From: a virus
Strand: one strand, 5' to 3'
IMG/VR virus record: IMGVR_UViG_3300023223_000242
Span: 1-37,851 of that record
Length of the DNA: 37,851 nucleotides
Both the position numbers and the translations under genes were made by a program. Below, one piece after another: positions 2,819 through 16,774 of this stretch; position 1 is the first letter of the stretch, and each line of letters opens with the position of its first letter. The notes beneath the pieces were generated by a model. It did no database searches. It saw only the letters and a program-made list of their open reading frames with translations, and had not been told where the DNA came from.

Positions 2819-2819
2819 T

Positions 2820-2945
2820 TTATAACCTTCCTAACAATATAAATTCATCAGGATAGTACATACATAAATCAATCCCATTATTAAACCAGAGTGTAGATAT
2901 ATAATCTCCATTGACAATATATATAACTATTATATTTTCATCCAC
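2820..2945 (-). CDS. 41-residue hypothetical protein (GTG start) behind palindromic repeat R1
   Basis: A short frame starting at GTG (2943-2945) with GGAG seven bases upstream; that GGAG directly follows the half-site TTATCGTGCGCA of repeat R1. The product begins VDENIIVIYIVNGDY and is hydrophobic and aromatic. It ends one base before the RusA-like start, and its last codons provide the RusA ribosome site. Repeat then ribosome site then small gene is the same plan as at four other places in this genome. Confidence 0.55.
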   Translation of the reverse strand: MDENIIVIYIVNGDYISTLWFNNGIDLCMYYPDEFILLGRL

Positions 2946-2958
2946 TTACATACTCCTG

Positions 2959-3000
2959 CGCACGATAAGAAACCTTATCGTGAATTATAAATCGTGTGCA
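2959..3000. repeat. Palindromic repeat R1 with an extra half-site
   Basis: CACGATAAG (2961-2969) and CTTATCGTG (2974-2982) form a perfect 9-bp inverted repeat with a 4-base centre. A further half-site, ATCGTGTGCA, lies at 2991-3000 and encodes the Ala-His-Asp near the end of the 74-residue gene. R1 therefore joins the 3' end of one small gene to the ribosome site of the next. Confidence 0.8.
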
Positions 3001-3209
3001 AAATCTGCCATTCTCATCCCGTGGTGAACACCTTCAAGCCTCAAGATTGCATCTTTATATGGGTTAAACAGCAATTCGCTGCCGCCTAACATTTTCAAAA
3101 AATGGATTGTCTCATCCACCCTACCTTGGTTTCTAATATACTTTGTTATTTCAGTTTCTTGTACTGGTTCACTCTCACTTTTACATGGTATATTCATTTC
3201 TTCATCCAT
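2985..3209 (-). CDS. 74-residue hypothetical cassette protein
   Basis: ATG at 3209 with AAAGGG upstream, directly after repeat R2. The product is soluble-looking, with a charged N-terminus (MDEEMNIPCKSESEP) and a helical C-terminal half ending MRMADFAHDL. The last codons GCA CAC GAT TTA TAA lie in the outer half-site of repeat R1. No family recognised. It is flanked on both sides by members of the repeat family. Confidence 0.65.
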   Translation of the reverse strand: MDEEMNIPCKSESEPVQETEITKYIRNQGRVDETIHFLKMLGGSELLFNPYKDAILRLEGVHHGMRMADFAHDL

Positions 3210-3223
3210 TTTATTCCCTTTGT

Positions 3224-3249
3224 TGCACGATAATAACTGTTATAGTGCA
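3224..3249. repeat. Palindromic repeat R2 (most complete copy)
   Basis: A 26-base copy. On the minus strand it reads TGCACTATAACAGTTATT followed by ATCGTGCA, with arms of 10 bases (one mismatch) and a 6-base centre. It lies between the stop of the 75-residue gene and the ribosome site of the 74-residue gene. Confidence 0.85.
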
Positions 3250-3250
3250 T

Positions 3251-3478
3251 TTAATTATTCTCAAAATACCCAGAATCATACAGATTCTTTATGTTACTTT
3301 TACAGTTATCACAAATGAATGGAACCATTGTATTTGGATGAACATGCTCTACATCACATCTTAAACATGTCCATGATGTAAAAGCTTGCCCTGACAAACC
3401 ACTCCTACTGTTCTGATAGGCTATAAGCGGTCTAGTTAAGTTGTTTATTCTTCTCATTAATGTATCTTCTAATTCCAT
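3251..3478 (-). CDS. 75-residue putative zinc-ribbon cassette protein
   Basis: ATG at 3478, with AGAGAGG upstream, directly after repeat R3. Two CxxC pairs (C38-C41, TCLRC, and C56-C59, ICDNC) separated by 14 residues form a classic zinc-ribbon or treble-clef arrangement. Such small proteins usually bind nucleic acid or protein partners. The stop TAA immediately precedes repeat R2. Zinc binding is a reasonable prediction; the function is unknown. Confidence 0.7.
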   Translation of the reverse strand: MELEDTLMRRINNLTRPLIAYQNSRSGLSGQAFTSWTCLRCDVEHVHPNTMVPFICDNCKSNIKNLYDSGYFENN

Positions 3479-3494
3479 GTATTTACCTCTCTAT

Positions 3495-3518
3495 GCACGA
3501 TAAGATAAATTATCGTGC
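3495..3518. repeat. Palindromic repeat R3
   Basis: GCACGATAA (3495-3503) and TTATCGTGC (3510-3518) form a perfect 9-bp inverted repeat with a 6-base centre. One arm encodes the Ala-Arg-stop end of the 66-residue gene. The other lies just before the ribosome site of the 75-residue gene. Confidence 0.85.
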
Positions 3519-3710
3519 GTCTCTAAAATCACACTCTTGTATTATTCCTAAGATAGTTGCTGCCCACATATGAGCTTTATGTGGTCTGCAATATTCTTCT
3601 ATTTCTTTTAGTTTTTCATTGTACTCCTCATCGGGAATATCATCACATGGGTCATAATGCTTATTGTATTCTGACTCACATTTCTCAAAGTTGTCTGGTA
3701 GATCATTCAT
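3510..3710 (-). CDS. 66-residue acidic hypothetical protein ending in repeat R3
   Basis: Starts with ATG at 3710, overlapping the end of the helicase gene. It is strongly acidic and Tyr-rich (for example YDPCDDIPDEEYNEKLKEI). Its last codons GCA CGA TAA are an arm of palindrome R3, so the repeat supplies the stop. No palindrome lies upstream, unlike the five other repeat-flanked genes, so it may mark the boundary of the cassette cluster. Confidence 0.65.
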   Translation of the reverse strand: MNDLPDNFEKCESEYNKHYDPCDDIPDEEYNEKLKEIEEYCRPHKAHMWAATILGIIQECDFRDAR

Positions 3711-4905
3711 ATATTTTCCTTATGTCATTTGACTTACGTTTTATCATATCACTTAGACTCTTATCAACATCGCTTGTAAAAATGTAATAGTAAAAACATG
3801 TTTTAGTTTGACCCATCCTAAGTGTTCTCTTCTTAGCTTGCTCTAACTCAGCAGGAACAAAGGGTAGATCATTAAATATCGTGTAATTTGTACCTGTTAT
3901 GTTAAAACCTGTTGACGCAGATCCGATGGTTGCTACTAAAGCATCACGCTTTCCTTTATTAAAAATATCAATTACATCCTGCCTAACTCTGGGCTTAGTA
4001 TTCCCGTCTATCATAAAACAGTTTAAAGATTCATGTAATTGTTTAGCTGCAGCTCTATGACATGTGAATATCAACGGTCTATGACCTTGTTCAATTAACT
4101 CTTTAGCATGTTTTATAGTGGTTTCTACTTTAGCCAAAGCGTTCATTGATTTTAAACTCATATAAGCAGGATCATTTGCATCCATTTTAAATAAATCAAA
4201 TGCTTCTTTTAATTGTTTGTCGTATTTCTTAGAGTTGCCAACTATTTCAGACTCTACTTCTTTTGGGAGATCCAAGACCTGATCTGCTCTTCTACGAATA
4301 AGTACAGGTCTAATAAGAAGTTTAAGCTCATCAACATTACGAACGCCATCAAACCTAATAATAGGTATGCCGTTAACCTCAAAGGTTCTCTCATTAGAAA
4401 AACGATTGCAAAACTTAAAGTACAAACGATAATAAGGTTTAAATTCGTCATAATTTCCCCCATAATGACATGCTTGTAAAAGAGACCAAAACTCTGAAAC
4501 CCTATTGGATACAGGTGTTCCCGACAGTCCCATAAAATATTTAGGCTTATTGAATATTAATAGATCGTGTAAAGCCTCTGTTCTCTTAGCTTTATAGTTC
4601 TTTAGATAGTGACATTCATCACATACAATTAGATCAAAACCGTCCCATTCTAATTTCTTAAGACTAGCATAACTAACCACCGTGATGTCTAGACCTTCAG
4701 TGAATTTCTCAATCTCATTTAACCAATTTTGTTTTAAAAAAGCGGGGACTACTACAAGTGTTTTAGCCCCGACTTCACAAGCAAAGGCTAGTGCGGTGAC
4801 AGTTTTCCCCAGCCCAGCTTGGAAATTATTGATATGATAAGGATGCTTCAACGCAAATTCCACACCCTCAACTTGAAAATCTTTTAACTCACCTTTAAAC
4901 TTCAC
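3703..4905 (-). CDS. SNF2/SF2-type DNA helicase or translocase
   Basis: A 400-residue protein with two RecA-like lobes. Motif I is QAGLGKT (residues 29-35), motif II DECH (96-99), motif III LSGTP (127-131) and motif VI QAKKRTLRMGQ near residue 365; the QxxxRxxRxGQ form is typical of SNF2-family ATPases. It should use ATP to move on or remodel duplex DNA during phage replication or recombination. The start is GTG at 4905, with AGGG about nine bases upstream. The Cas4-like nuclease lies close upstream and RusA further downstream, consistent with a recombination/replication role. Confidence 0.88.
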   Translation of the reverse strand: MKFKGELKDFQVEGVEFALKHPYHINNFQAGLGKTVTALAFACEVGAKTLVVVPAFLKQNWLNEIEKFTEGLDITVVSYASLKKLEWDGFDLIVCDECHYLKNYKAKRTEALHDLLIFNKPKYFMGLSGTPVSNRVSEFWSLLQACHYGGNYDEFKPYYRLYFKFCNRFSNERTFEVNGIPIIRFDGVRNVDELKLLIRPVLIRRRADQVLDLPKEVESEIVGNSKKYDKQLKEAFDLFKMDANDPAYMSLKSMNALAKVETTIKHAKELIEQGHRPLIFTCHRAAAKQLHESLNCFMIDGNTKPRVRQDVIDIFNKGKRDALVATIGSASTGFNITGTNYTIFNDLPFVPAELEQAKKRTLRMGQTKTCFYYYIFTSDVDKSLSDMIKRKSNDIRKIYE

Positions 4906-4910
4906 TGTAA

Positions 4911-5099
4911 TTAACCCTTTTGATCGTTCTGAAGTAGTAGGATGATTCCCTGGATTGCGTACTGTACGCCAACCTCAACACCATATTCATAAGAATCATC
5001 AAAATTCCAATTGTCCCAATGCTCTATATCAAAGTTAAAATCAGGATCATGTGTTTTCTCTACGTATTCTTTTATTTTTGTTATTAATTCTTTAGTCAT
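4911..5099 (-). CDS. 62-residue acidic hypothetical protein
   Basis: A small protein between the Cas4-like nuclease and the helicase. ATG at 5099 is preceded by GGAGAG. It starts with a Lys/Glu helix, has an aromatic acidic centre (DIEHWDNWNFDDSYEYG) and ends with a hydrophobic helix (VGVQYAIQGIILLLQ). No family recognised; tight spacing on both sides indicates the same operon. Confidence 0.65.
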   Translation of the reverse strand: MTKELITKIKEYVEKTHDPDFNFDIEHWDNWNFDDSYEYGVEVGVQYAIQGIILLLQNDQKG

Positions 5100-5108
5100 T
5101 TCTCTCTC

Positions 5109-5981
5109 CTATTTAATAGCCTTAACAATGATCGTATCCTGTTGTTCAGTATATTCTTTACCGTGGCATCTACTGAACCATTCGCACGGTCTAAAGTACG
5201 CCTGGCAGTAAGTAAAATTCTTAGTTGGAGCTTCACCTTTCCTAAGTTCCATCGATCTTTTATATAGTTCCAAATGTTCATTCACTACCTCTTTCATGCT
5301 AAGTAATTCTTTAGGAATAAAGATTGCATAACTTCTAACTAACTTCTTATCAACCATCCTAAGAACATATTGAGAATACGTTTCTTTCTTCTGTTGTTTA
5401 GCAGCTGATTTAGTAGTCACTAGGTATCTAACACCAATAAATTTATCTGGGTCTAAATCATATTTGATGGCTATCTCGGGGTGAAATGCTGCGTACAAAT
5501 TCAACTGCCGATCACGGGGCAACTCAGCTATTTTATTCTCATAGAATGTCTTAGCAGTTTTTAGATCTGAAATACACCAATCACCATTAGGTCTCTTCTC
5601 AATTAAATCGATATAGCCGACGGTAGAAGCAGCATCTATCTTGTATTCACATGCTACAGCTTCGAAGTCGTCTTCTTTTCGGAGACGCAAGTATTGAAGT
5701 ACGAGTGCATGTACCAAACCTGCATCCTCTTCTCGTAATCCGATTTCTTGTACACAATAATCGAGTTCTTTTGTGATATTTTCTGGTTTCTTATGCATCG
5801 AATGTTCCAGAATATAGTGGAAAGAAGTACCAATATCAAAATGACTATTGTCTCGATTTGCATCTGAGTCCTTTTCAGTCTTAGCGACTTTGTAGTGGTG
5901 GTATTTTTGTTCACAATTACGGAGGAGATTCCCGGATGAATAACTCAGCCGGGTGTCCTCAAACATCTCTGTCTGACTCAT
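5109..5981 (-). CDS. Cas4/RecB-like PD-(D/E)XK nuclease
   Basis: A 290-residue protein with the nuclease core GTSFHYILEH (residues 51-60), E112, D125 in VGYIDLIE, the D139-LK motif (SDLKT) and Q159xxxY163. This is the usual RecB/Cas4 order of catalytic residues. One Cys near the N-terminus (C23) and three near the C-terminus (C259, C266, C272) fit an iron-sulfur cluster as in Cas4 and AddB. The likely role is DNA end processing during phage recombination or replication; no CRISPR array is present here. It overlaps or abuts neighbours within a few bases. Confidence 0.85.
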   Translation of the reverse strand: MSQTEMFEDTRLSYSSGNLLRNCEQKYHHYKVAKTEKDSDANRDNSHFDIGTSFHYILEHSMHKKPENITKELDYCVQEIGLREEDAGLVHALVLQYLRLRKEDDFEAVACEYKIDAASTVGYIDLIEKRPNGDWCISDLKTAKTFYENKIAELPRDRQLNLYAAFHPEIAIKYDLDPDKFIGVRYLVTTKSAAKQQKKETYSQYVLRMVDKKLVRSYAIFIPKELLSMKEVVNEHLELYKRSMELRKGEAPTKNFTYCQAYFRPCEWFSRCHGKEYTEQQDTIIVKAIK

Positions 5982-5983
5982 GA

Positions 5984-6346
5984 CTATTCTAAATCGTTGA
6001 GGTTAGTAGAATTTGGATTTTCTATAGTGACTGGCTTAGCATCCTCAACAAATACGTCGAATTGATTAGCTTCTTTACCAGCCATTTTACCTTTCTCAAG
6101 AGTAATTTTGCCTTTGAAAACAACTTTACAGATTTCGCCTTCCGCAAGTTGATCCATGCAATAGTTAAGTTGTCCTGCACTATTAAGGCATTTTCTTTCA
6201 CCAGTATCTAGGTCTTCAAATAAATGTTTTGGTTGTCCAAATTTTTGATCTATTGTAGTTTCAATATATTTTCCTCTCTCAAAGAAAACAAATCCTGGTT
6301 CACATTCAGAGTACTTGAAATAAGTTGGGGGTGTCATTAAACGCAT
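5984..6346 (-). CDS. Phage early protein, possible OB-fold ssDNA-binding protein
   Basis: A 120-residue protein beginning MRLMTPPTYFKYSECEPGF, with AAGG upstream of the ATG at 6346. Small beta-rich phage proteins of this layout, placed beside Cas4-like nucleases, often bind single-stranded DNA. The acidic C-terminal tail (NPNSTNLNDLE) is compatible with that, but there is no decisive motif. It sits directly upstream of the nuclease gene with two bases between. The functional call is a guess from context; the gene itself is well supported. Confidence 0.6.
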   Translation of the reverse strand: MRLMTPPTYFKYSECEPGFVFFERGKYIETTIDQKFGQPKHLFEDLDTGERKCLNSAGQLNYCMDQLAEGEICKVVFKGKITLEKGKMAGKEANQFDVFVEDAKPVTIENPNSTNLNDLE

Positions 6347-6412
6347 AAAAAATCCTTGTTATATATGATGCCATAATTGGCTTAGTTATTTATTGGATGC
6401 CTGAAACTATAA

Positions 6413-6508
6413 TTATGAAGCCATAACGTCAAGATAAAATCTGATGCCGAAATACCAGAAAGCTATTAATGATCCCATCACTCCCCACCTAAACAATTTA
6501 ATGTCCAC
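6413..6508 (-). CDS. 31-residue single-pass membrane peptide
   Basis: A short frame with GTG at 6508 and GAGAGG six bases upstream, overlapping the end of the 72-residue gene. The product contains a clear membrane helix (about residues 8-28, WGVMGSLIAFWYFGIRFYL). No other gene competes for this space. Function unknown. Confidence 0.5.
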   Translation of the reverse strand: MDIKLFRWGVMGSLIAFWYFGIRFYLDVMAS

Positions 6509-6716
6509 GATTTACCTCTCTCCATTCTTCTCTTAATCTAGCTATCTTTTTAGTGTTCCATACCACTAGAGCGTTTTGTTTTCTCCAGCTGTAGGTACAA
6601 GTTTGTTCACGTTCTAGGTCTTTGAAATATTCTTTACGTTGTTTAAGAGCAATATCTATTTGTTTCTCAATAGCTATTTTCTTCTCTACAATTAAGATAC
6701 TCATACTCTCGTCCAC
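6498..6716 (-). CDS. 72-residue basic coiled-coil protein
   Basis: Opens at a GTG at 6716 inside the end of the metzincin-like gene; an ATG four codons later is an alternative. It is a highly charged helical protein (KKIAIEKQIDIALKQRKEY, then IARLREEWREVNR) that could form a coiled coil. No family recognised. Overlaps on both sides place it in the same transcript as its neighbours. Confidence 0.65.
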   Translation of the reverse strand: MDESMSILIVEKKIAIEKQIDIALKQRKEYFKDLEREQTCTYSWRKQNALVVWNTKKIARLREEWREVNRGH

Positions 6717-7273
6717 TTATATCTTTTTCTACCGTACCAAGATCTACCTATATAGACTTTCTGTAATTCCGTAGTTGATCGTATAGAGTGAGCGTGAATG
6801 TCATTATAGATTTCATTTAATAGATATGGTATTGACCTTGATCTAGCTACAGTACTCCCACCCTCATGTCTAAACCCCATAGTATGTGACCATTCATGTA
6901 CTATTAAAGAACCTAATTTTCTATAACTTAAAAAATCTAGAAATTTAACATTCAAATGGATAGTTCTTTTACCTGGACTCATATATCCATATACTCCAGC
7001 CATTGTGTAATAGTCATCAATGTACAAATCCATTTCATTATCAGCGAAATTAGATGTCTCTTCTTTCCCGGACATAATATGATTATACAATTCAGATTTA
7101 GTGACATCTTTCCATTTAGATAATTCTCCCCACGGTCTCATATCAAATATAGCCGATTTAAAATCACCTGAATTTACAATCAATTCAATTTGTTCACTTA
7201 CTTCAATCAACTTCTTTCTTCTCTCACAGCCATTGATCTTGTCTAGATTCATTTTTACTTTAATCATAACCAT
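6701..7273 (-). CDS. Metzincin-like zinc metallopeptidase
   Basis: A 190-residue protein with the extended zinc motif HEWSHTMGFRH (residues 126-136), which fits HExxHxxGxxH: three His ligands and catalytic E127. This is the metzincin signature, rare in phage early regions. No signal peptide or propeptide is obvious, so it probably acts in the host cytoplasm or on a phage protein. A clear Met-turn is not visible; MxxG near the motif is not in the usual place. The gene overlaps the preceding small gene (ATGGTTATG within its end) and lies between DNA polymerase and nuclease genes. Confidence 0.75.
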   Translation of the reverse strand: MVMIKVKMNLDKINGCERRKKLIEVSEQIELIVNSGDFKSAIFDMRPWGELSKWKDVTKSELYNHIMSGKEETSNFADNEMDLYIDDYYTMAGVYGYMSPGKRTIHLNVKFLDFLSYRKLGSLIVHEWSHTMGFRHEGGSTVARSRSIPYLLNEIYNDIHAHSIRSTTELQKVYIGRSWYGRKRYKWTRV

Positions 7274-7445
7274 TCTCCCTCTTATACTTTAGAAATTTTA
7301 TAAACTGTACCTCATTGTAATATTTGGATTTTATTCTATCTATCTCTTTGTCATATTTTTTCGTAGCCCAATAAATTTCATCTTCTTCTGGTGTTCTTTT
7401 TGGTTCGTCTTTAAAAAAATTTTCCGCCCACTCCATACCTTTCAT
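7260..7445 (-). CDS. 61-residue charged hypothetical protein
   Basis: ATG at 7445, two bases after the polymerase stop. Rich in Lys, Glu, Asp and Tyr with predicted helices (EEDEIYWATKKYDKEIDRIK). No recognised family. Translational coupling with the polymerase and the metzincin-like gene is likely from the spacing. Confidence 0.65.
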   Translation of the reverse strand: MKGMEWAENFFKDEPKRTPEEDEIYWATKKYDKEIDRIKSKYYNEVQFIKFLKYKRENGYD

Positions 7446-7447
7446 AC

Positions 7448-9442
7448 CTACTCCATATACTCTTTGAAATATTCATACTCTTCTTTCGACCTTTCATCTA
7501 CATATATTGTTTGCCTTTTAAACTTATTACCGTCAGGGGTTCTACCTGTTCCATCTTCATAATCAGGACTCCAAATATCAATATCAAAATCAATCAATTT
7601 GTTGGCTTTACTTTGCATCTCTCCCTCAAAATAAAAATAGAAAGCTGTCACCATACACTCTAATAAAACATCAACGGGTCTCAAATCATGACTATCAAAC
7701 TCTATATAAATAGCATCGTGTAGTGGGTAGATAACCGTCAAACCAGCATCTTGTGCTAATTGAATCGCTTTACGTAATATCGCAGATCCCATACCTTGAA
7801 TCGGCATGTTTTTAACTGATTTATCATTTCCATTGTCCCCAAACATTGTCCATCCGTCCTCAAGTTGCCAGAATCTATGCACACCATAGGTATAGTAGGC
7901 AGCATTCTGCCATTTAGTGTATTCAGGATAAGCTTTATTAAAGATTTCTATAAGTCTCTTTGCGTCCTCTGTAGTTTGTACCATTCCAGTGTCAGCTGTG
8001 AGTTTTCTTCCCAATGCTTTTGGTCCCATGAGGTAACTGATTCCAAGTGTCGTAGCTTTGAATAAATCTCTTTCTCTCTTATATTCCTCACGTGTTCCTT
8101 CAGCCGGTACAGCTCCTGCGAGTTTCGCAAAGTATAAATAAACATCACCAGATTCATAAGCGTCAAGCATATTAGAGTCTCCACTAACTAAACCTCCTAG
8201 TAGGAATTCTTGAGATTTGTAATCAATTGCTGCAATAGCTCTACCTTTTTTTGGGCCAATGAGACTTCGCATCCAAGCCGATTTAAGCGGGATAAAACTA
8301 GTGGCTTTAGGTTGATATCTACCCGATTGTGCTCCATAAGGGTTAAGGTAACACCTAACTCTTCCATCATTTCCGAGTGAGTCGAATATAGTTTCTTTGT
8401 TTTTTGTCGTACTTCCTTTAGGTGTAAATCCATTTAAACTCCTATAAGTTTTAAGATATCTTAGATATTGAATAAAAGGACAGTCTCTTGGAAATTTATG
8501 GCTATAGTTAAAATGTTTTTCAAATGACTCTACTCTTAAACTATAGTTTCCTAATTCTGTTTTATCCCATATATCTCTATACTCTGACTCTTCAATTATT
8601 TTCTTCATCATCAAAGTATTTTTACTATATATTTGATTTTTATTGTTCCACTTGAAAAGATCATATTCAAATTGAGAATTTATATCTTCACATAATTTTA
8701 TTAATATCTTTTTTACATTCCCTGCGAAGTTTTTCATCTTTTCAACATCGACCGGATAGCCTTCAGAAATCATCAACGCTGTTCTGGCCATTGTTTCTGA
8801 TCTCCAGTAAAGATGGTCTTCTTTTACTTCATAATCTCCAGGTGCTCTTTTAAAATATTCTTCATACTCAGATCTAATTACTTCCCATATTTCTGGAAGA
8901 TATTTTACATCTGAAGTACAGTATTCTGTAATGTGTTGTTTGAATATTTCTAGTTGTTCCGGTGTACCGTTTATACAAATATCTCTCATTTCATCTTTAT
9001 GATCAGTATCTATTTGTTTACCTAGCAATTTATAAGTACCGGATGCTAGACTAGAAGGGGGTCTATTTCTTTGCTCTCCATATTTTGGAATTCCAAAGTT
9101 GACTATTTTACCTTTAACTAAATGTTTACCTGTAGAATATTTGTGGTAATGGTTCAGCAACATTCTATATTCCACCATTAAATCTATAACTTTAAACTTA
9201 GCAGGATGTAATCCTAGACTGATGAATGACTGTCCCTCGGCTACGTAGTTCCAACATAAAAATATTACACCCTTGTTTCTCATATCTAAAAGTTTTTGCT
9301 TACATTTATATTTCTGTACTTCATCTCTTAACCAATATTCCCAAATAAGACCATCGTATTGAAATGAACAACAAATTAGATCTAGTCTAGCTTCGGCTGT
9401 ACCTTTATATTCGAAGTCAATACTGCAATATGTTCTAGCCAT
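7448..9442 (-). CDS. polA: Family A DNA polymerase with 3'-5' exonuclease
   Basis: A 664-residue replicative polymerase. The N-terminal exonuclease shows D9 and E11 (SIDFEYK) and a late motif near D178 (YCTSDVKYL). Polymerase motif A is AAIDYKSQE (D407), motif B RDLFKATTLGISYLMG (R458, K462, Y470) and motif C PLHDAIYIEF (H575, D576). No 5'-3' exonuclease domain is present, as usual for phage enzymes. At the position equivalent to E. coli F762 the residue is Leu (L466). Motif C reads HDA instead of the common HDE. The ATG overlaps the stop of the SF3 helicase gene (TAATG), so the two are coupled. Confidence 0.95.
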   Translation of the reverse strand: MARTYCSIDFEYKGTAEARLDLICCSFQYDGLIWEYWLRDEVQKYKCKQKLLDMRNKGVIFLCWNYVAEGQSFISLGLHPAKFKVIDLMVEYRMLLNHYHKYSTGKHLVKGKIVNFGIPKYGEQRNRPPSSLASGTYKLLGKQIDTDHKDEMRDICINGTPEQLEIFKQHITEYCTSDVKYLPEIWEVIRSEYEEYFKRAPGDYEVKEDHLYWRSETMARTALMISEGYPVDVEKMKNFAGNVKKILIKLCEDINSQFEYDLFKWNNKNQIYSKNTLMMKKIIEESEYRDIWDKTELGNYSLRVESFEKHFNYSHKFPRDCPFIQYLRYLKTYRSLNGFTPKGSTTKNKETIFDSLGNDGRVRCYLNPYGAQSGRYQPKATSFIPLKSAWMRSLIGPKKGRAIAAIDYKSQEFLLGGLVSGDSNMLDAYESGDVYLYFAKLAGAVPAEGTREEYKRERDLFKATTLGISYLMGPKALGRKLTADTGMVQTTEDAKRLIEIFNKAYPEYTKWQNAAYYTYGVHRFWQLEDGWTMFGDNGNDKSVKNMPIQGMGSAILRKAIQLAQDAGLTVIYPLHDAIYIEFDSHDLRPVDVLLECMVTAFYFYFEGEMQSKANKLIDFDIDIWSPDYEDGTGRTPDGNKFKRQTIYVDERSKEEYEYFKEYME

Positions 9443-10971
9443 TACATGTCCTTCATTTCAGTAGGTTTTTCTTTAGCCCTATATTTATCTAGGGGGATAA
9501 TAAAAGAATTACGTACTGATTTGCCTCGTTCGTACTCTCCTAGTTTCTCACCTCGGTGTCTATAGTTATCAAGGAAGTCTATAACTTTTTTATGGGTAGC
9601 GGGTTGGTACTTGTCATGCTCATCATACAAACTAGATAGTTGAATTTTATCTGTCTCTTCACCATTAATTATTTCATCTACAATCTTCATTTCCCATGGC
9701 TTTAATGATTCATATACTACTTGATAAAATGCTTCAGATTTATAGGGTTTCATTGTGTTGAAATCTTTTGATTTATTTTCTTCTAAATAGTTGAAAAATG
9801 CCTGTGCAAACTCTTCAGTTTCAATCCTTAAAGAGAATTCGGACATCCAACTATCCTCTATTTCCCTTTCAATAGTTGTTTGTTTTGTTAATTCTAATAC
9901 AGAAAATCTTCTCTCATCATATGTGAATTTCCAATCTGAAATATTATTAGTAGCTATCCACATTGATACAAAGTTTGTAACTGATTCAGTTTCTTTTGAT
10001 TTTTCTTCTACATTAAACTCTTTATTGGCATCCGATTTAAGAATATTTATAGCTGCATTTGTATCAGCAACCATCTCATCCATTAGAACTAGACGTTTAT
10101 TTTTCTTATAGCCATTGAATTCTTTCTTAAGTGCGTTTTGGGGAGCCTTACGATAATTAGATTTGCCCACACATCCAATTAGCATTTCTATTAGAGTAGT
10201 TTTACCTGTACCTTTCACCCCATAAAGCATTACATAAGACCACATCTTATCAACCACTGTTGCATAAGATGAATCTATATAATATTGAAGAGATTCTTTA
10301 TCTACAAATGATGTTTCGATAAAGTATTTTTCTTCCATTGCTAATTTTAAACTTAAATCCCTATCGTATCTCCATTTGGGTTGAATACATTCATTTATAC
10401 AAGTTAGATTGCATCCTAAACTTTCAGAATATTCCTTCCAAGATTTGTCATTTAGATCTTCATTTATTAAATACGGATTATACACTCTTTTAGCTAGGGG
10501 GAACTGTGGTTTTATTGATTGATAAGTTTCTTCCCCTATCAAATGTCTGTAGGCTAATATCGAGAACCCTTCCACTTGAGATAGGGTGTCTCTTTCTACT
10601 ATAAATTTATCTTTATCGTGGTATTCACTCTCAGCTTCAATATCTTTGAATACTAGGAATTTCATAGGATCTATTTGATCCATATCCTCATGTAGTAGCT
10701 TTCCAGCTTCATCTCTTTTCACCTCAACTAAAGTATCTTTAATTGTATTTAGAACATCATGATTGAAATCTCTAACAGAAAACCCATTAGATTTAACCAC
10801 CATAAATAGATCTAATTCTATTAATAGAGCATCATCATTTAATATTTCTTTGATCACAGCATAGTTAGCTTTACTGTTACCATTGAACAGAGCTTGACCT
10901 CTTAGATTGTACTTTTGATTTTCTTGTAGATAATTCGATACAATATGTACCGGATCAAGTGCCTTCTCCAT
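9442..10971 (-). CDS. SF3/D5-like replicative helicase
   Basis: A 509-residue protein with a C-terminal helicase: Walker A GVKGTGKTT (residues 251-259), Walker B RLVLMDEM (293-300), the superfamily 3 sensor motif WIATNN (338-343) and an arginine-rich DERRF following it. These match D5/poxvirus-type helicases that act with phage primases at origins. The N-terminal 200 residues show no primase motif I can recognise. It is the first gene of the leftward early block, with TGGAGGG before the ATG, and lies next to the control region at 10972-11269. Confidence 0.88.
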   Translation of the reverse strand: MEKALDPVHIVSNYLQENQKYNLRGQALFNGNSKANYAVIKEILNDDALLIELDLFMVVKSNGFSVRDFNHDVLNTIKDTLVEVKRDEAGKLLHEDMDQIDPMKFLVFKDIEAESEYHDKDKFIVERDTLSQVEGFSILAYRHLIGEETYQSIKPQFPLAKRVYNPYLINEDLNDKSWKEYSESLGCNLTCINECIQPKWRYDRDLSLKLAMEEKYFIETSFVDKESLQYYIDSSYATVVDKMWSYVMLYGVKGTGKTTLIEMLIGCVGKSNYRKAPQNALKKEFNGYKKNKRLVLMDEMVADTNAAINILKSDANKEFNVEEKSKETESVTNFVSMWIATNNISDWKFTYDERRFSVLELTKQTTIEREIEDSWMSEFSLRIETEEFAQAFFNYLEENKSKDFNTMKPYKSEAFYQVVYESLKPWEMKIVDEIINGEETDKIQLSSLYDEHDKYQPATHKKVIDFLDNYRHRGEKLGEYERGKSVRNSFIIPLDKYRAKEKPTEMKDM

Positions 10972-11170
10972 TGCAGTCCCTCCATCAGGATTGTGATAAT
11001 TAATTACTTAATCACCACATTGGTATACCCAGAAGTCCTGCAATGAAAAAGTATAATGAAAATAGGGTAGAGGTATAGGAATGTCAAAGATTAATTATGA
11101 CGCATTGGGTTTCAGAGAAATGCACAAAACATTGTATCTAATCTGAAAACTTTTTTACCTATTTTTTTTC

Positions 11171-11196
11171 GAGCAAGTTTTTTTAAAATTTTGCTC
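11171..11196. repeat. Inverted repeat in control region
   Basis: GAGCAA (11171-11176) and TTGCTC (11191-11196) flank an A/T-only centre after the first G, so the pairing can extend inwards. It follows a T-rich stretch and precedes the candidate plus-strand promoter. It could be an operator or the hairpin of a terminator. Confidence 0.5.
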
Positions 11197-11199
11197 ATT

Positions 11200-11229
11200 T
11201 TGACGGAAACAAAGCGTCAAAGCTATGTT
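11200..11229 (+). promoter_or_regulatory. Candidate sigma70-like promoter for the plus-strand gene
   Basis: TTGACG (11200-11205), an 18-base spacer and TATGTT (11224-11229). The start point would fall near 11236, inside the palindrome at 11221-11240, so a repressor bound there could block it. The -35 box lies in the TTTGACG/CGTCAAA inverted repeat. Confidence 0.5.
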
Positions 11230-11240
11230 ACTACATAGCT
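11221..11240. repeat. Perfect palindrome, candidate operator
   Basis: AGCTATGT and ACATAGCT separated by TACT. It overlaps the -10 box of the candidate plus-strand promoter, a typical operator position. Confidence 0.55.
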
Positions 11241-11281
11241 CATTAGCTTTTTGTGTATGAAATAGAGAGGTGGTTTGTTTC

Positions 11282-11635
11282 ATGAGATTATTCTACCACA
11301 AGAGTACTTGTAATAAAACTGTTTTAGTGAGTTTTTTAGGTAGAAGAATCTTGGTATTATTGGGCATGAAGAAAAAGGAAGTTTCATTCATATTCGGTAA
11401 AACCCTAACAACCCATCTTGCATCAATGCCTACAAATTCTCGCTATCTAACTCTCAGAATTGAGCGTTTTAGTGAGGAGTTTCTTAATGCTGATGTCACT
11501 TTCGAGAATGTAGATACTATGTTAGATGCTATCTACGATTATATGTATCAATGTGAAGAATCATCTGAGTTAGAACACCATCTAATCAATCTAAAACAAT
11601 CCATTTTCTGGTTACGCGCTTATAGTGAGTTGTAA
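11282..11635 (+). CDS. Plus-strand hypothetical protein at the divergent control region
   Basis: A protein of about 117 residues from ATG at 11282, with AGAGAGG 11 bases upstream. A GTG at 11270 and an internal ATG at 11368 are alternatives, the last giving a product starting MKKKEVSFIF. Apart from two tiny cassette genes this is the only gene on the plus strand, and it is expressed away from the early operon. That position suits a regulator, but no helix-turn-helix is evident. The C-terminal half is helical and acidic. Confidence 0.6.
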   Translation: MRLFYHKSTCNKTVLVSFLGRRILVLLGMKKKEVSFIFGKTLTTHLASMPTNSRYLTLRIERFSEEFLNADVTFENVDTMLDAIYDYMYQCEESSELEHHLINLKQSIFWLRAYSEL

Positions 11636-11670
11636 AAAATACCTATGATGTTGTAAAAATATTTATCTGT

Positions 11671-11696
11671 GATAATAATTATATTCTTATCGTGCA
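11671..11696. repeat. Palindromic repeat R4 (5' side of plus-strand cassette)
   Basis: The conserved half-site TTATCGTGCA lies at 11687-11696, immediately before GAGGAG. The left arm is degenerate (GATAATAATTATATTC). GATAATAAT here could also serve as a -10 box, with TTGTAA upstream. Confidence 0.6.
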
Positions 11697-11711
11697 GAGG
11701 AGATATAAGTA

Positions 11712-11816
11712 ATGGGAATTAAAGAATATTTTTTAATACAACTAGTGCTCCAGATGGTGCTGCATGGGATGATTATTTTTATGTACATTCATGACAAAGT
11801 TATGGGGTGGAGATAG
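11712..11816 (+). CDS. 34-residue membrane peptide in a plus-strand cassette
   Basis: ATG at 11712, with GAGGAG nine bases upstream, directly after the half-site TTATCGTGCA. The product begins MGIKEYFLIQLVL and has one hydrophobic segment (about residues 6-27) followed by a charged tail (HDKVMGWR). The stop TAG is followed by half-site R5. It stands in a gap where the surrounding long genes are on the minus strand. A candidate moron gene; function unknown, but small membrane peptides can alter lysis or block superinfection. Confidence 0.55.
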   Translation: MGIKEYFLIQLVLQMVLHGMIIFMYIHDKVMGWR

Positions 11817-11820
11817 TTAA

Positions 11821-11838
11821 TGCACTATAACAGTTATT
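11821..11838. repeat. Palindrome half-site R5 (3' side of plus-strand cassette)
   Basis: TGCACTATAACAGTTATT is identical to the corresponding 18 bases of R2. The ATCGTGCA half is missing; instead the sequence runs into the stop of the metallophosphoesterase gene. Confidence 0.75.
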
Positions 11839-12546
11839 CTAAGGCGCAAATTTCGTCCAGCGACCTTTCTTATTAAGTAACATTGGTAACAACTTAGGTT
11901 GACCTTCATAAATCAATCCATGCCCTACTATAGGACGCTTGGGTGTGTTCTTATTATAAGCGAAGGCGAGAGATTTATCATCAATACTACAACCGACTTG
12001 CATGCCCCAATATAGATTGTTAGGATTAGACCAGTAATCAATCTTAAACTTGGAGTGATAATGCCCTTGAACGATACACATTCCCATGGATTGACTGACT
12101 TTTTGGACGTCAGCTCCTATTCCATGGTTGAAATAACATTCTTGACCATTGCTGAGCTTAATAACAAGATCTCTATGCCAGACCCAGCCCTTTGGAGCAT
12201 CCAACACGTCCCCGTAGGATTTGAGATAAGACAAGGGGATTCCGTTAGTCTTAGCCTTCCTGTAGACCATGCTGCCATGATTACTTTCCATGACATCGAC
12301 GACAGGGAAAAGGTCATAATACTCCTGTAAATCTTTCTTAGCTGCAATAAGCTCATCACCAGCACTGAACAATTCTGAATCTGAATCATGGAAACTTAAT
12401 GCGTGTTTATCACATTCATCTCCAATATGAATGACTCGATCAATAGGATATTCGTTTTTAATGGCTTTTAAAAAGGGGATATTATCAGGGTGACCGTAGG
12501 GTAAATGTGTATCTGAAATTATTAATACGCATCTATTTTTACTCAT
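11839..12546 (-). CDS. Calcineurin-like metallophosphoesterase
   Basis: A 235-residue protein with the metal-binding motifs in order: DTH (residues 12-14), GD (42-43), NHG (89-91, in place of the usual NHE/D), H141 and GHYH (161-164). The family hydrolyses phosphoester bonds using two metal ions; phage members may act on nucleotides, RNA ends or protein phosphates. ATG at 12546 has AAGGATGG upstream. It is the last minus-strand gene before the plus-strand pair, so it probably ends the late transcript. Confidence 0.88.
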   Translation of the reverse strand: MSKNRCVLIISDTHLPYGHPDNIPFLKAIKNEYPIDRVIHIGDECDKHALSFHDSDSELFSAGDELIAAKKDLQEYYDLFPVVDVMESNHGSMVYRKAKTNGIPLSYLKSYGDVLDAPKGWVWHRDLVIKLSNGQECYFNHGIGADVQKVSQSMGMCIVQGHYHSKFKIDYWSNPNNLYWGMQVGCSIDDKSLAFAYNKNTPKRPIVGHGLIYEGQPKLLPMLLNKKGRWTKFAP

Positions 12547-12547
12547 G

Positions 12548-12652
12548 TTATTCCATCCTTGGTTTACATATAGTTAAAATTGTAAAATATTGTAAAATTT
12601 TGTAAAATATTGTAAAGTATAACTTTCCAAAACGCCCATAAGCATCATCCAT
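12548..12652 (-). CDS. Possible 34-residue peptide encoded through the tandem repeat
   Basis: ATG at 12652 opens a 34-codon frame that reads through the 10-bp repeats (giving YFTIFYKILQYFTILTI, hydrophobic) and ends one base before the phosphoesterase ATG. The ribosome site is weak. It may be a real coupled leader or simply an open frame produced by the repeats. Confidence 0.25.
   Translation of the reverse strand: MDDAYGRFGKLYFTIFYKILQYFTILTICKPRME
12581..12620. repeat. Four tandem 10-bp repeats
   Basis: TGTAAAATAT, TGTAAAATTT, TGTAAAATAT and TGTAAAGTAT follow each other exactly. A 10-bp period places the same face of the helix towards one side, as in bent DNA or iterated protein sites. 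On the minus strand each unit gives TTTACA, a -35-like box, upstream of the phosphoesterase gene. Confidence 0.75.
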
Positions 12653-12679
12653 GATTACCATGGACGCCTAGGAGAAACA

Positions 12680-12708
12680 CTATAGGACCTGTTTGCATAA
12701 TCCTATAG
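12680..12708. repeat. 8-bp inverted repeat with 13-base centre
   Basis: CTATAGGA (12680-12687) and TCCTATAG (12701-12708). It lies in the gap after the endolysin gene. No T-tract follows closely on either strand, so an operator or RNA hairpin is more likely than a terminator. A weak half-site, ATTATCGT, lies next to it at 12713-12720. Confidence 0.6.
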
Positions 12709-12727
12709 GAATATTATCGTTCTTAAG

Positions 12728-13114
12728 TTATTTGATGGCAAATACAGAATGTATAGCTAGGTGTAAATGTTCAGCGGTTCCGAAGTGATAATAAGCTAAA
12801 TCTCTTCCACCTGAACGCTTCTCATACCAGTAGTTTTTATACTCTTCTTTACCTTCAATATATTCCATTATATCCATTAAAATAAATAGATCCAAATCCT
12901 TGGTTCTAATATCAATGGCTCTACCCTCTCTGTGAGCTGATGAAGTTCTTCTAAGTAATTTGTCTTGTAATTTAGTTGTAACTGTCTGAGTAACAGTCAA
13001 TTCTACTCCATAATTATCATAGGCGTAGTTGTACATATCCATGAAAATCATTAATAGGACTGGATGGAGGGAACAGAATAACTTACGATCCCTGCTATTT
13101 TTAAATTTAATCAT
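12728..13114 (-). CDS. Endolysin, M15-type peptidase
   Basis: A 128-residue protein with the LAS/M15 zinc-peptidase motifs: SSAHREGRAIDI (H61, D68) and EHLHLAIH (E115, H118). This pattern (SxHxxGxAxD, then ExxHxH-like) is typical of VanY/L-Ala-D-Glu endopeptidases that phages use to cut peptidoglycan cross-links. There is no signal peptide, so it needs a holin to reach the wall. The ATG overlaps the stop of the preceding structural gene (TAATG). It lies about 3.7 kb from the holin/spanin-like cluster. Confidence 0.85.
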   Translation of the reverse strand: MIKFKNSRDRKLFCSLHPVLLMIFMDMYNYAYDNYGVELTVTQTVTTKLQDKLLRRTSSAHREGRAIDIRTKDLDLFILMDIMEYIEGKEEYKNYWYEKRSGGRDLAYYHFGTAEHLHLAIHSVFAIK

Positions 13115-13473
13115 TATGGATTTGCATATTCAAAAGCATAGATTGTTACTGAACTGAAAGCAGCACTGAGGGAGATAATCTCACCGGAACTCATAATAAT
13201 ATCTTCTGTAAAATTACCGACACTAGTGCTCAAATCAACTAAAGCGAATGTTGTGTCTCCTAAAGGTCCAATCAAACCACCACTGACATTAACTGCTGCA
13301 TCCACTTCTATAAATCCAGATGTGCCAAAGGTGATAGATAAAGAGGAACTCGTGTTTAAGGTCATCACTTTAATTCTTGCGAAGTTATCAGCTGGAACTG
13401 TATAAATTGTTCCTGATGTTCCTGTTATTTTTGTAACAGCATTTAATTGTTCACCACCAAAAAAAGTAGCCAT
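13114..13473 (-). CDS. Small beta-rich structural protein
   Basis: A 119-residue protein full of Ser, Thr, Gly and Val (for example TKITGTSGTIYTVPADNF), with no Cys. It looks like a single beta-sandwich domain of the kind used in tail or decoration proteins. It starts at ATG 13473 with a ribosome site just upstream, after the 182-residue protein. Exact role unknown. Confidence 0.65.
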   Translation of the reverse strand: MATFFGGEQLNAVTKITGTSGTIYTVPADNFARIKVMTLNTSSSLSITFGTSGFIEVDAAVNVSGGLIGPLGDTTFALVDLSTSVGNFTEDIIMSSGEIISLSAAFSSVTIYAFEYANP

Positions 13474-13481
13474 ATATTCTC

Positions 13482-14030
13482 CTAATTAATTGGTTTATAA
13501 AAAATTGTTATTCCACAGTTTTGAGCTGATGCCATTGAAGCATTTAGCTTCATAAATACTGACTCTCCCTCTAAGAAACTTGTCTTAGAAAATACTGGTA
13601 ATGTTACCCCAGTAGGAGATATATCTGTGGATGTTGTTAGATTTCTAAATCCAATTGTTTCGTCTGCAGAGGTGCTATCAATTTTAGGTGTTGTACTAAA
13701 GATACTTCCTTGTGTAACACCTGATGTATTCTTCCATTGGATATCAAATTCAGTAATACCACTTGCTCCAGAGATACCATTATAGAAAAAGACACCTACA
13801 ATCTCTGTATTAAAGAAGAATGAAGCTGCACCATCAAAGAATGCAATCCCTGTAGCTACTCTATAAACACCATTTAATTTGAATTCTTTAATATCTGTTT
13901 GAAAATCATTTAAGAAGTTATTTTGAGCTGCTACTTTAGTTAATAGACCTTCGCTGACGGCTCTCTTATAAGCTACATCGCCCTCTAAAAACTCTGATCT
14001 GCTCGATGCTACGGGATCTTGTGCTGCCAT
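13482..14030 (-). CDS. Putative tail-associated structural protein
   Basis: A 182-residue protein with a helical N-terminus (EFLEGDVAYKRAVSEGLLTK, then NNFLNDFQTDIKEF) and a beta-rich C-terminal part containing short Gly/Ser repeats. Short helix then beta sandwich is common in tail-tip or fibre components. A good promoter-like sequence lies upstream at 14064-14092, so it may start its own transcript with the next two genes. No specific family recognised. Confidence 0.65.
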   Translation of the reverse strand: MAAQDPVASSRSEFLEGDVAYKRAVSEGLLTKVAAQNNFLNDFQTDIKEFKLNGVYRVATGIAFFDGAASFFFNTEIVGVFFYNGISGASGITEFDIQWKNTSGVTQGSIFSTTPKIDSTSADETIGFRNLTTSTDISPTGVTLPVFSKTSFLEGESVFMKLNASMASAQNCGITIFYKPIN

Positions 14031-14063
14031 GTTCTATCCTTATAAAGTTTACACTCTTTGCTT

Positions 14064-14092
14064 ATTCTAAATAATTGTGTGCTATATGTAAA
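14064..14092 (-). promoter_or_regulatory. Candidate sigma70-like promoter for genes leftward of 14030
   Basis: On the minus strand TTTACA (14087-14092), a 17-base spacer and TAGAAT (14064-14069): 5 of 6 matches in each box with ideal spacing. On the plus strand the same stretch holds TGCTATATG, an extended -10-like sequence for the cassette gene at 14142. Confidence 0.5.
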
Positions 14093-14094
14093 AT

Positions 14095-14120
14095 ACGATA
14101 AGAATAATTATTATCGTGCA
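14095..14120. repeat. Palindromic repeat R6 (5' side of plus-strand cassette)
   Basis: ACGATAA (14095-14101) and TTATCGT (14111-14117), followed by GCA. The half-site TTATCGTGCA directly precedes the ribosome site GTAGAGG of the 58-residue gene. Confidence 0.8.
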
Positions 14121-14141
14121 GTAGAGGTATAAGGTAGCGAA

Positions 14142-14318
14142 ATGACTGTAGAAGAAAAAGCAGATAAGATAACCGATAAAATGAAATCAATATTAAATGA
14201 CTGTAAAGATTTTATACACGATGAAATCGAGTTTAAAGTTCAATTGTATGTAAATGGTTATTATGATTTAAAAAAAGAACTAGATTTAATGGGGTTTGAG
14301 TTAACAAATGCACCATAA
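14142..14318 (+). CDS. 58-residue acidic helical protein in a plus-strand cassette
   Basis: ATG at 14142 after the half-site TTATCGTGCA and an AGAGG/AAGG ribosome site. The product is charged and helical (MTVEEKADKITDKMKSIL, then YDLKKELDLMGFEL), with one Cys and no membrane segment. Its last codons GCA CCA TAA lie in repeat R7, so the repeat supplies the stop. It is inserted against the direction of all flanking structural genes. No family recognised. Confidence 0.65.
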   Translation: MTVEEKADKITDKMKSILNDCKDFIHDEIEFKVQLYVNGYYDLKKELDLMGFELTNAP

Positions 14319-14332
14319 CAGTTTATTATTGT
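14309..14332. repeat. Palindromic repeat R7 (3' side of plus-strand cassette)
   Basis: TGCACCATAACAGTTTATTA followed by TTGTC is a diverged copy of R2 (one substitution and one insertion in the first 18 bases). It ends at the stop of the tail hub gene, which runs on the opposite strand. Confidence 0.75.
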
Positions 14333-16774
14333 CTAGATAAGCGAATATGGGAAACCACCATCCAAGAAATCACTATACTCTACAATATCACCAACTTGGG
14401 GGGTGAAGTTTAGAGCATTATCTAGTGTCACAACTGGACCTACTATACTCACAACTGTAAAGATTGTTTCCTCTTCAAAACTATCGCTAGTATAGTCAGG
14501 ACTGTGGACATAAATCTCACTGTCAACTGCCAGATCACCCGGATTACTAACTGAGAATGATGTTGCTGTATCTGATACCGATACAATAACTTGAGCATCC
14601 CAGTGAGCGAATCTTATCTTATAGTCATTATCTGTGTCGGCATCTATATCATTATATTCTGGAATCCCTACTTGGTGTGAAGAGCCAGGTACGAAACTAA
14701 GAGCTGGACTAACAAGCATGATGTTGCTATCGCTGGGATCAATACCAGTAAAAACCACAGTTTCATCGTCTGTGTAATCAGTTTTGAAGACTCGCACATT
14801 CTCACCGACGAACTCTTCCCATTTAGCTGCTTCATTTAAAAACTCTCCAGTATCTACAATTGTTACTAAGTTCAATCTAGTTGTTGTACTAGCATCAGAC
14901 AACCCAGATGTAAGGCTGACAACTGCATTTCTAACTCGTATTGAGAAGGATGTAGATAGAAGATCTAGTTTTATCTGTCCAGTTTTTATGTTTAATGATG
15001 TATTTATTACTTCAAATAGCTGCTCATTCACACCACGTGTTCCGGTATTGAGATCAACTATCTTAGAAGCTTGTCCACCGAATGGTAGAATGTCTCCCAC
15101 TTCTAGGTTAAAACCAGCTGCATATTTGACTTCGATTCCTTCAAAGTATGTAGGAGCGAATCTATATCTATCTATAATTCTTTCTGTAATTTGATTAAGT
15201 GCTGATGTGGTTGGTAGACCTTTAACTAAACCATTTGATTCAATTAACATCTGCTTTTTACCACCCTTGATTCTATCCAATGATGTTTGGGATAAAATAA
15301 TATCCTTAGCTAGGAATTTATCCTCTAAGATATCTGGGCTGTAGTCATATCTAATGATGTTATATAGGTATTTATGAAGTGATCTTCTCTGTCTGATATC
15401 ACCGATATTTGTGATGTTGTCGATATCTATAGTTGGAACAATGTCCGAACTAAATGGTGGTGTTACTAATTTACATGATGATCTTGCTTTCCTATTTATT
15501 GTATATAAACCTTGAGGGAAATACACTTCTTGGTCTAGGAATTCTTTCGCGTTATCGATTGTATCCTTGAGCTGGAACGTATAGGACACAAAATTGGTTG
15601 GGAATGAATTCTGTATATCGAGGTGACCTTGAACATCAACATTATTAGGCAACATCCCAAGACCGTCGGGTAATACATTAAATTGACTCCTATACTGAAA
15701 ATCATCGGTAAAATCAGTTTCAGTTATTAAGGTTTCATTAACAACTATAAAAGAGCCATTCTCAAGTGTACCAAAGGTTTTAATGGTGAAATCACCTGCA
15801 TTAACTCCTGTTGTTACTCTAATTGTATCACCCACCACCAATCCTGTCCTCAATTGAATATCAAAATAGTCGAATTGGAATGAATTTAGAATATCCGGCT
15901 CTGAAACAGATACGAAATTTACTGACTTTGGAAGGTCAAAACTATTGAAAAATGTATTACCATCATTTGATAACATCATTTTCAAGGCTAAGGGTATTGG
16001 TTTATCGATTAATTGTTGAAGTGAAAGTATTTCAACATCATCATCGTGAGCAACTGCGGTAGTTCCCTGTTGTCCTCTAAGCACTGTTATCTGTACGCCA
16101 GAATCAATAGAAACTAATTGCATAATCTCATCATCGACTCTGAATAAAGTGGTAGCTGTATCCTGATTAGGGATGATATCTAGGGTACTTGTTACATTAA
16201 ATACTGTTTGAACATCGGTTATAGCACCAGATATATTGGATAAATATTGCTGGAATATGGCTTGTCTTTTAAGGTTTTCAGGATGGGCTACAGTCACCAT
16301 AACTGTACCGTTTTGAGTGTAGAAATCAACTACAACACCCCTATAAATTGCGATAGCATCTTCGGGATATGCTCCCTGTTTGAATCCTATATAATAGTCA
16401 GCTTTACGTCCTAGGATCTCACCTAGATTATCGAATGCCAGAATCTGAGCTACTTCATTGTTTAAATCAACTAGAGCTATGTTTACGGATGGAAGTGAAG
16501 ATGATCCACCTTTATCCGGAAATATTTGCTGCTTAATTGTTTTAGTGGATTGATCCAGGTCTATTACAGATAAACTATCAGGTCTAACCGATAAACCATC
16601 CCATCTAATATCAGGATCATCCCAACTAGTAGTGGAAGAATCCCACTCAGTGAATTCAAATACTGGTTGAGCTCCAAAGATAGTACCCAGACCCTCTATT
16701 TCTAAGAATGATTGAGGGTTAATTCCTATCTGTTGTGAAAGTGCTTTATTGGTGGGGGATAGGTCTTGAGCCAT
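14333..16774 (-). CDS. Tail tip/hub-like protein
   Basis: An 813-residue protein in the position of a central tail-tip or baseplate hub gene, downstream of tape measure, distal tail and fibre genes. The N-terminal third is typical of siphovirus tail proteins (FLEIEGLGTIFGAQPVFEFT, then DLNNEVAQILAFDNLGEILG). The middle has DIIPNQDTATTLFRVDDEIM, a short beta module. The C-terminal 180 residues hold two related beta modules ending in TVVFTGIDPSD and TIFTVVSIVG. There is no peptidase or lysozyme motif I can recognise. ATG at 16774 directly follows the lipoprotein gene stop. Function is inferred from size, order and composition. Confidence 0.7.
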   Translation of the reverse strand: MAQDLSPTNKALSQQIGINPQSFLEIEGLGTIFGAQPVFEFTEWDSSTTSWDDPDIRWDGLSVRPDSLSVIDLDQSTKTIKQQIFPDKGGSSSLPSVNIALVDLNNEVAQILAFDNLGEILGRKADYYIGFKQGAYPEDAIAIYRGVVVDFYTQNGTVMVTVAHPENLKRQAIFQQYLSNISGAITDVQTVFNVTSTLDIIPNQDTATTLFRVDDEIMQLVSIDSGVQITVLRGQQGTTAVAHDDDVEILSLQQLIDKPIPLALKMMLSNDGNTFFNSFDLPKSVNFVSVSEPDILNSFQFDYFDIQLRTGLVVGDTIRVTTGVNAGDFTIKTFGTLENGSFIVVNETLITETDFTDDFQYRSQFNVLPDGLGMLPNNVDVQGHLDIQNSFPTNFVSYTFQLKDTIDNAKEFLDQEVYFPQGLYTINRKARSSCKLVTPPFSSDIVPTIDIDNITNIGDIRQRRSLHKYLYNIIRYDYSPDILEDKFLAKDIILSQTSLDRIKGGKKQMLIESNGLVKGLPTTSALNQITERIIDRYRFAPTYFEGIEVKYAAGFNLEVGDILPFGGQASKIVDLNTGTRGVNEQLFEVINTSLNIKTGQIKLDLLSTSFSIRVRNAVVSLTSGLSDASTTTRLNLVTIVDTGEFLNEAAKWEEFVGENVRVFKTDYTDDETVVFTGIDPSDSNIMLVSPALSFVPGSSHQVGIPEYNDIDADTDNDYKIRFAHWDAQVIVSVSDTATSFSVSNPGDLAVDSEIYVHSPDYTSDSFEEETIFTVVSIVGPVVTLDNALNFTPQVGDIVEYSDFLDGGFPYSLI

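Follow-up and report, generated by a model that had tools for sequence, protein, structure and literature searches.

Small genes of a tailed phage lie beside copies of a candidate Xer recombination site of Bacteriovoracaceae and may form single-gene dif modules

It has long been asked how tiny accessory genes enter and leave phage genomes, and the usual answer is illegitimate recombination. Here, we analysed a 37.9-kb tailed-phage record of IMG/VR (IMGVR_UViG_3300023223_000242; all 37,851 nucleotides are hereafter referred to as the window), which encodes a terminase, head proteins, a tape measure and a DNA polymerase, and in which seven related palindromic repeats border small genes. The initial annotation described these genes as possibly exchangeable cassettes and left the repeat itself unidentified. 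The cassette idea is supported in outline, and the repeat is a dif-like Xer site, which would provide a mechanism based on a recombinase of the host. We consider it probable that the repeats are phage-borne Xer sites and that 'dif modules' of a single open reading frame (ORF) are exchanged in this tailed phage by host Xer. Xer modules are already known; in our best reading, they are here carried by a tailed phage. The open-access literature, to which the search was limited, yielded no report of dif modules in a tailed phage.

The repeat unit is a 26-bp palindrome, TGCACNATAA-N6-TTATNGTGCA, which occurs at seven places, three of them complete (sites 1 to 3) and four decayed (sites 4 to 7; Table 1). 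All of the seven places reported initially exist, far above chance. With up to one mismatch, TTATCGTGCA has 11 matches, of which only one falls outside the reported places, against 2.2 expected, and no shuffled sequence reached 11. TGCACTATAACAGTTATT has two exact matches and two with three mismatches. Full 26-bp sites, with a 6-bp spacer and up to three mismatches, were found three times against 0.05 expected from dinucleotide shuffles; the site at 3224-3249, taken initially as the one composite full-length site, is therefore one of three. Sites 4 to 7 are hybrids of one intact and one decayed arm; in all four, the small gene lies on the side of the intact arm. The core ATAA-6 bp-TTAT between two arms, which is that of Xer recombination sites (PMC11705084, PMC2731167), is present in sites 1 to 3 and decayed in sites 4 to 7; the outer arm of site 5 has no TTAT. 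Sites 1 to 3 carry three different spacers, and sites 2 and 5 have the spacer CAGTTA in common, in inverse orientation. Sites 1 to 3 (2959-3519) look recombination-competent.

The same palindrome is found in bacterial chromosomes. When 84,980 genomes were scanned for the exact palindrome, 69 loci emerged, of which about 28 belong to Bacteriovoracaceae and their near relatives, and an order-wide search (129 genomes, up to two mismatches) gave a match in 46 genomes, mostly in one copy each. The host site has the form CACGATAA-GAAA[GC]A-TTATCGTG. Among 40 host sites, one per genome, the inner arm positions CACGATAA and TTATCG are invariant, and the spacer is GAAAGA or GAAACA in 36; in many of the host genomes, the site lies just 3' of one conserved gene of 67 residues. 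The complete chromosome G118 (4,153,408 bp) has the site at 2,372,479, which is 41 kb from the point opposite dnaA (2,331,777, with dnaA at 255,073), and the sampled GC skew flips there from positive to negative. The window arms match this single-copy terminus site. It has the features by which dif is usually recognised in silico and is very probably the chromosomal dif of Bacteriovoracaceae, with arms that differ from the canonical TTATGTTAAAT and from the published dif of Bdellovibrio (PMC2731167).

A palindrome could also be the operator of a dimeric regulator or a processing hairpin that is associated with small genes. A perfect palindrome can fold, the repeats sit just 5' of ribosome sites, and in several other phages they lie upstream of terminase or capsid genes. 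We find this explanation very unlikely, since the host genomes have about one copy each, at the replication terminus in the complete chromosome and with a conserved asymmetric spacer, and since the decayed sites retain the gene-facing arm on both sides of the gene, not on one regulatory side. Terminators, another alternative raised initially, are not borne out, as no terminator-like site coincides with any repeat; promoter-like matches at the window sites are no more frequent than in shuffles. The proximity of several palindromes to terminase genes had raised the possibility of a cos site or a late operator, an idea that was dropped in view of the host-genome scan and the terminus test.

The host of the window phage is probably a member of Bacteriovoracaceae, which are predatory bacteria. 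This assignment is based on the site itself and on the isolate with the nearest DNA polymerase, a phage associated with Silvanigrella, which, like Bacteriovoracaceae, belongs to Bdellovibrionota. At a distance of 1 kb from its candidate dif, G118 has a gene for a tyrosine recombinase of the Xer family (L198:8497-9432, G118:C1:2373499-2374431), and the best solved relative of this recombinase is E. coli XerD. Close orthologues are found on the dif contig in seven other genomes, 1.5-109 kb away. That this dif-linked protein is the single Xer of the family was not upheld, because an orthologue is missing from many site-bearing genomes.

The genes next to the sites differ between related phages. 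The first 20 kb of the window gave no megablast match to named phages. Relatives are L043 (36.6 kb), with genes at about 26-72% identity in nearly all modules, L234 (36.8 kb), in which the helicase is 62%, the nuclease 64% and the product of the gene at 2351 62% identical and the structural genes are more distant, and L255, with a helicase 55% identical to that of the window. The main locus lies between the helicase gene and the 2351 gene and has in the window the order helicase, 66-residue gene, site, 75-residue gene, site, 74-residue gene, site, 41-residue ORF, 2351 gene. At the same place, L234 has genes of 89 residues, site, 78 residues, site, 56 residues (from an inner ATG) and 70 residues. 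Its sites are CGCACGATAA-TCTTTC-TTATCGTGCA and CGCACGATAA-CGTTTA-TTATCGTGTA, and the spacer TCTTTC is exactly the common host dif spacer. L043 and L255 have there a gene of about 70 residues alone, without a site. The second place is the junction of the genes at 13482 and 14333, which in the window holds sites 6 and 7 with the 58-residue gene; L043 has a 9-bp gap at this junction, and both L234 and L255 show a one-base overlap between the two genes. Searches of whole records gave two sites in L234 and none in L043, and no site with up to three mismatches was found at eighty helicase-homologue loci (769 kb). Related replicons (the window, L234, L043 and L255) differ in content at one locus, and the cassette genes show no homology between phages.

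Comparing the flanked genes and looking for empty sites in relatives, as had been proposed, gave the outcome that the cassette idea predicts: the repeats surround a different small gene at the same place in L234, and empty alleles exist at both places (L043 and L255 at the main locus; L043, L234 and L255 at the junction). The opposite pattern, in which relatives keep the same genes at the same places while the repeats diverge freely, is not seen. As to movement itself, neither a donor cassette nor a circular form was found, nor a pair of molecules with both sites of a module in common. Recombination of the ordinary homologous or illegitimate kind at a tolerant locus, with the repeats as short homologies or passengers, would agree with the turnover at the main locus even where sites are absent (L043 and L255 compared with the window). 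We regard it as highly improbable, because 26-bp sites are short for homologous exchange, the arms are kept while the spacers differ, and the match to the host dif is left unexplained.

The exchange of modules by host Xer could proceed as follows. A unit would be made of an arm, a ribosome site and an ORF, with the stop codon often inside the next arm, and units would lie between or beside sites. Two site-bearing replicons in one cell, either two phages or a phage and the host chromosome, would be joined by host Xer, which would bind and recombine sites with compatible 6-bp spacers. If the joined replicons were then resolved at another pair of sites, small genes would be exchanged, gained or lost, and this recombination would be the cause of the turnover. 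In the pdif (plasmid dif) modules of Acinetobacter, genes lie between ATAA-6 bp-TTAT sites that are like the host dif; most of these modules have different spacers at their ends or inverted sites and cannot excise alone, and their movement is thought to be a cointegration at one compatible pair followed by resolution at another (PMC11705084, PMC13141974). The spacers of the window fit this cointegration model, because those of sites 1 to 3 differ while compatible partners exist elsewhere: site 1 with a secondary host site in genome G117 (GAAACC), site 2 with site 5 (CAGTTA), and L234 with phage L246 (CGTTTA). The cassettes at 11712 and 14142, in which the inner arms are intact and the outer arms decayed, may have been inserted at poor targets or fixed later by decay; they are probably fixed.

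A second function of the sites has to be weighed. They could be dif mimics by which host Xer integrates the phage at the chromosomal dif, the strategy of integrative mobile elements exploiting Xer (IMEX), or resolves multimers, the small genes adjoining them by chance or because insertions are tolerated there. There are precedents (PMC3091885, PMC9765430), L234 and L246 each have a site with the exact host spacer, several phage contigs carry a single site beside terminase genes, and neither a recombinase nor an integrase was found among the window proteins scanned, which covered part of the window ORFs. Furthermore, an element of about 9 kb lies between two dif copies in G138, a genome of Halobacteriovoraceae (L184:2950-11925, G138:C6). 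From its ATPase-like and capsid-like genes, named by eye, it is likely a tailless phage, and its placement is as expected for an Xer-using element at dif. Similar genes to the left of this element suggest a second copy in tandem. For a dif mimic, however, a single site would suffice, whereas the window holds seven, three complete and four decayed, all of which face a small gene; the decayed sites keep their inner arms, and the spacers of the window are unlike those of the host. In the order-wide search, no contig of any genome has two sites separated by about 37 kb, and no integrated tailed phage of the window kind was seen. We therefore consider it unlikely that lysogeny or multimer resolution explains the sites; this is the main rival to the modules, with which it could possibly coexist.

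Several points weigh against the exchange of modules by host Xer. Four of the seven sites look inactive, and no recombination was observed. The ~70-residue backbone gene is missing from the window, which is a turnover of cargo without sites, and the window and L234 have no spacer in common, so that a direct exchange between them cannot be reconstructed. The terminus position was checked in one complete chromosome, G118. The acting recombinase may be XerC/D or the dif-linked protein. A host link by way of polymerase homologues is weak, as those in host genomes are few and distant.

All five small genes reported initially begin right after an arm, behind a Shine-Dalgarno-like stretch; in addition, a sixth gene, of 66 residues, ends within site 3 (GAC GCA CGA TAA). 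This gene and the 58-residue gene, whose stop codon lies in the arm GCACCATAA, are the two small genes in which an arm supplies the stop codon. The strict polarity that had been noted is automatic for genes between two full palindromic sites; it is informative at the four decayed sites, where it holds. Genes bounded by two sites are those of 75 and 74 residues (complete sites), those of 34 and 58 residues (decayed sites) and the 78-residue gene in L234. The 75-residue protein is 61% identical over 33 residues to an ORF of an unrelated phage, L044, its only relative among viral contigs, which is GC-rich and has no sites; tblastn with this protein gave zero matches in named phages.

Table 1 Dif-like sites, small genes and borders of the main locus in the window.
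Feature	Coordinates	Strand	Description
Dif-like site 1, complete	2959..2984	.	CGCACGATAA-GAAACC-TTATCGTGAA; 2 mismatches; spacer is that of the secondary host site in G117 (L146/L185)
Dif-like site 2, complete	3224..3249	.	Minus strand TGCACTATAA-CAGTTA-TTATCGTGCA; 0 mismatches
Dif-like site 3, complete	3494..3519	.	TGCACGATAA-GATAAA-TTATCGTGCG; 1 mismatch; gives the stop codon to the 66-residue gene
Dif-like site 4	11671..11696	.	Inner arm TTATCGTGCA intact (11687-11696); outer arm decayed; spacer ~11 bp, counting the decayed arm
Dif-like site 5	11821..11846	.	Inner arm TGCACTATAA intact; spacer CAGTTA; outer arm decayed; overlaps 3' end of phosphoesterase gene
Dif-like site 6	14095..14120	.	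Inner arm TTATCGTGCA intact (14111-14120); outer arm partial; spacer ~9 bp, counting the decayed arm
Dif-like site 7	14309..14334	.	Inner arm TGCACCATAA intact, gives the stop codon of the 58-residue gene; spacer ~7 bp, counting the decayed arm; outer arm partial
155-residue gene	2351..2818	-	3' border of the cassette locus; 61-62% identity in L043 and L234
41-residue ORF	2820..2945	-	Directly 3' of site 1; GTG start; no relatives found
74-residue cassette gene	2985..3209	-	Between sites 2 and 1; no relatives found
75-residue cassette gene	3251..3478	-	Between sites 3 and 2; product rich in cysteine, with a weak match to phrog_15241
66-residue gene	3510..3710	-	Between helicase gene and site 3; ends D-A-R-stop inside site 3
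SNF2-type helicase gene	3703..4905	-	5' border of the cassette locus in all relatives
34-residue cassette gene	11712..11816	+	Between sites 4 and 5; opposes surrounding genes
58-residue cassette gene	14142..14318	+	Between sites 6 and 7; opposes surrounding genes; missing at the junction in three relatives

Other occurrences of the arms were noted. Site-bearing phage contigs that share genes with the window are L005, L009, L225, L239 and L246. Dif-like sites lie beside terminase genes at L004:959, L005:7812, L009:8837, L225:5543 (the same phage as L239/L243), L228:2143, L233:2716, L236:1677 and L246:616 and 2159; in L246, the gene of the terminase large subunit lies between the two sites, one of which has the host spacer GAAAGA and host-like flanking bases. 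Palindromes in which the same arms enclose 11 bp (41 cases) or 12 bp (14 cases) are frequent among further viral contigs, such as L047, L058, L046 and L048, and these spacers are often conserved. In host genomes, secondary dif-like sites (L185:3854, L186:3918, L187:4366) adjoin helix-turn-helix, nucleotidyltransferase-like or toxin-antitoxin-like genes, assigned by eye, and are perhaps host dif modules. In other phyla, a dif role of the arms is unsupported: in Limnoglobus (9.4 Mb), about 3 Mb separate the site from the point opposite dnaA, and there is no clear skew switch. The Verrucomicrobiia metagenome-assembled genome (MAG) G002 has the same type of site nine times (L132:2411-4025, L114:2642-4257 and other contigs), some with the spacer CAGTTA, and in two places the site adjoins a tyrosine recombinase gene followed by an ScpB-like gene. 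In the Gastranaerophilales MAG G001 (L128, L129, L138-L140 and others), TGCACCATAATATTCATTATGGTGCA is a dispersed repeat that occurs 14 times and has conserved flanks.

Relative to L043, L234 and L255, the replication block of the window (primase to 2351 gene, 2351-10971) is inverted with respect to the structural block (12728-37638). One junction of this inversion, at about 11.0-11.84 kb, contains sites 4 and 5, and the other has no site. An inversion through sites 2 and 5 would leave the 2351 gene behind, contrary to what is observed, and alone does not account for how the window differs from the relatives. Short tandem TTGTAAAAT-like repeats are found at 12575-12618, upstream of the phosphoesterase gene (11839-12546).

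The general form of the proposal, that tailed phages of predatory bacteria, with no recombinase of their own, run an integron-like exchange of single-ORF cassettes through several copies of the host dif, is put forward tentatively, as a possibility. If it is true, recombination by host Xer, among co-infecting phages as well as with the chromosome, would capture and shuffle small accessory genes, and it may also rearrange larger blocks. The proposal is a defined and testable site-specific route, with the chromosome-dimer-resolution system of the host as its engine. It would carry Xer/dif modules beyond plasmids to tailed phages and provides a candidate dif for a family of predatory bacteria, and a phage-borne copy of the host dif could help to link uncultured phages to their hosts.

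Repeated elements between small phage genes are also known from T4-type phages, in which promoter early stem-loops (PeSLs), mobile regulatory cassettes located between small early genes, have been proposed to drive gene shuffling. PeSLs pair a promoter with a terminator-like loop and rely on homologous recombination; the window sites, by contrast, have no terminator and equal the host dif. The modules are in outline like integron cassettes, which are short ORFs that apparently lack a promoter and carry a recombination site at their 3' end, but the window site is a short, symmetric, double-strand Xer-type site without attC core boxes, and no integron integrase was found among the proteins scanned. 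Perfectly symmetric 10-bp arms that depart from the canonical Xer motif are shared with the dif/XerL of Legionella, a single-recombinase system of Legionellales (PMC9765430); in Bacteriovoracaceae, unlike in Legionella, an Xer-like gene is linked to the site in only part of the family, and the site is known here from sequence. Like IMEX phages, such as CTX phage and the Microviridae proviruses at dif (PMC3091885), the window is a virus in which no recombinase of its own was found and which carries a mimic of the host dif; it differs in having several sites with small genes between them. In comparison with the pdif modules of Acinetobacter, the window is a tailed phage and not a Rep_3 plasmid, and the cargo is one very small ORF in place of resistance or toxin-antitoxin genes. 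Its arms are symmetric, so that XerC and XerD arms are indistinguishable and the C/D orientation cannot be read, and they have the sequence of Bacteriovoracaceae, not the canonical one. The likeness to pdif (xrs) modules lies in the core, in the different spacers at the module ends and in a content that varies between related replicons.

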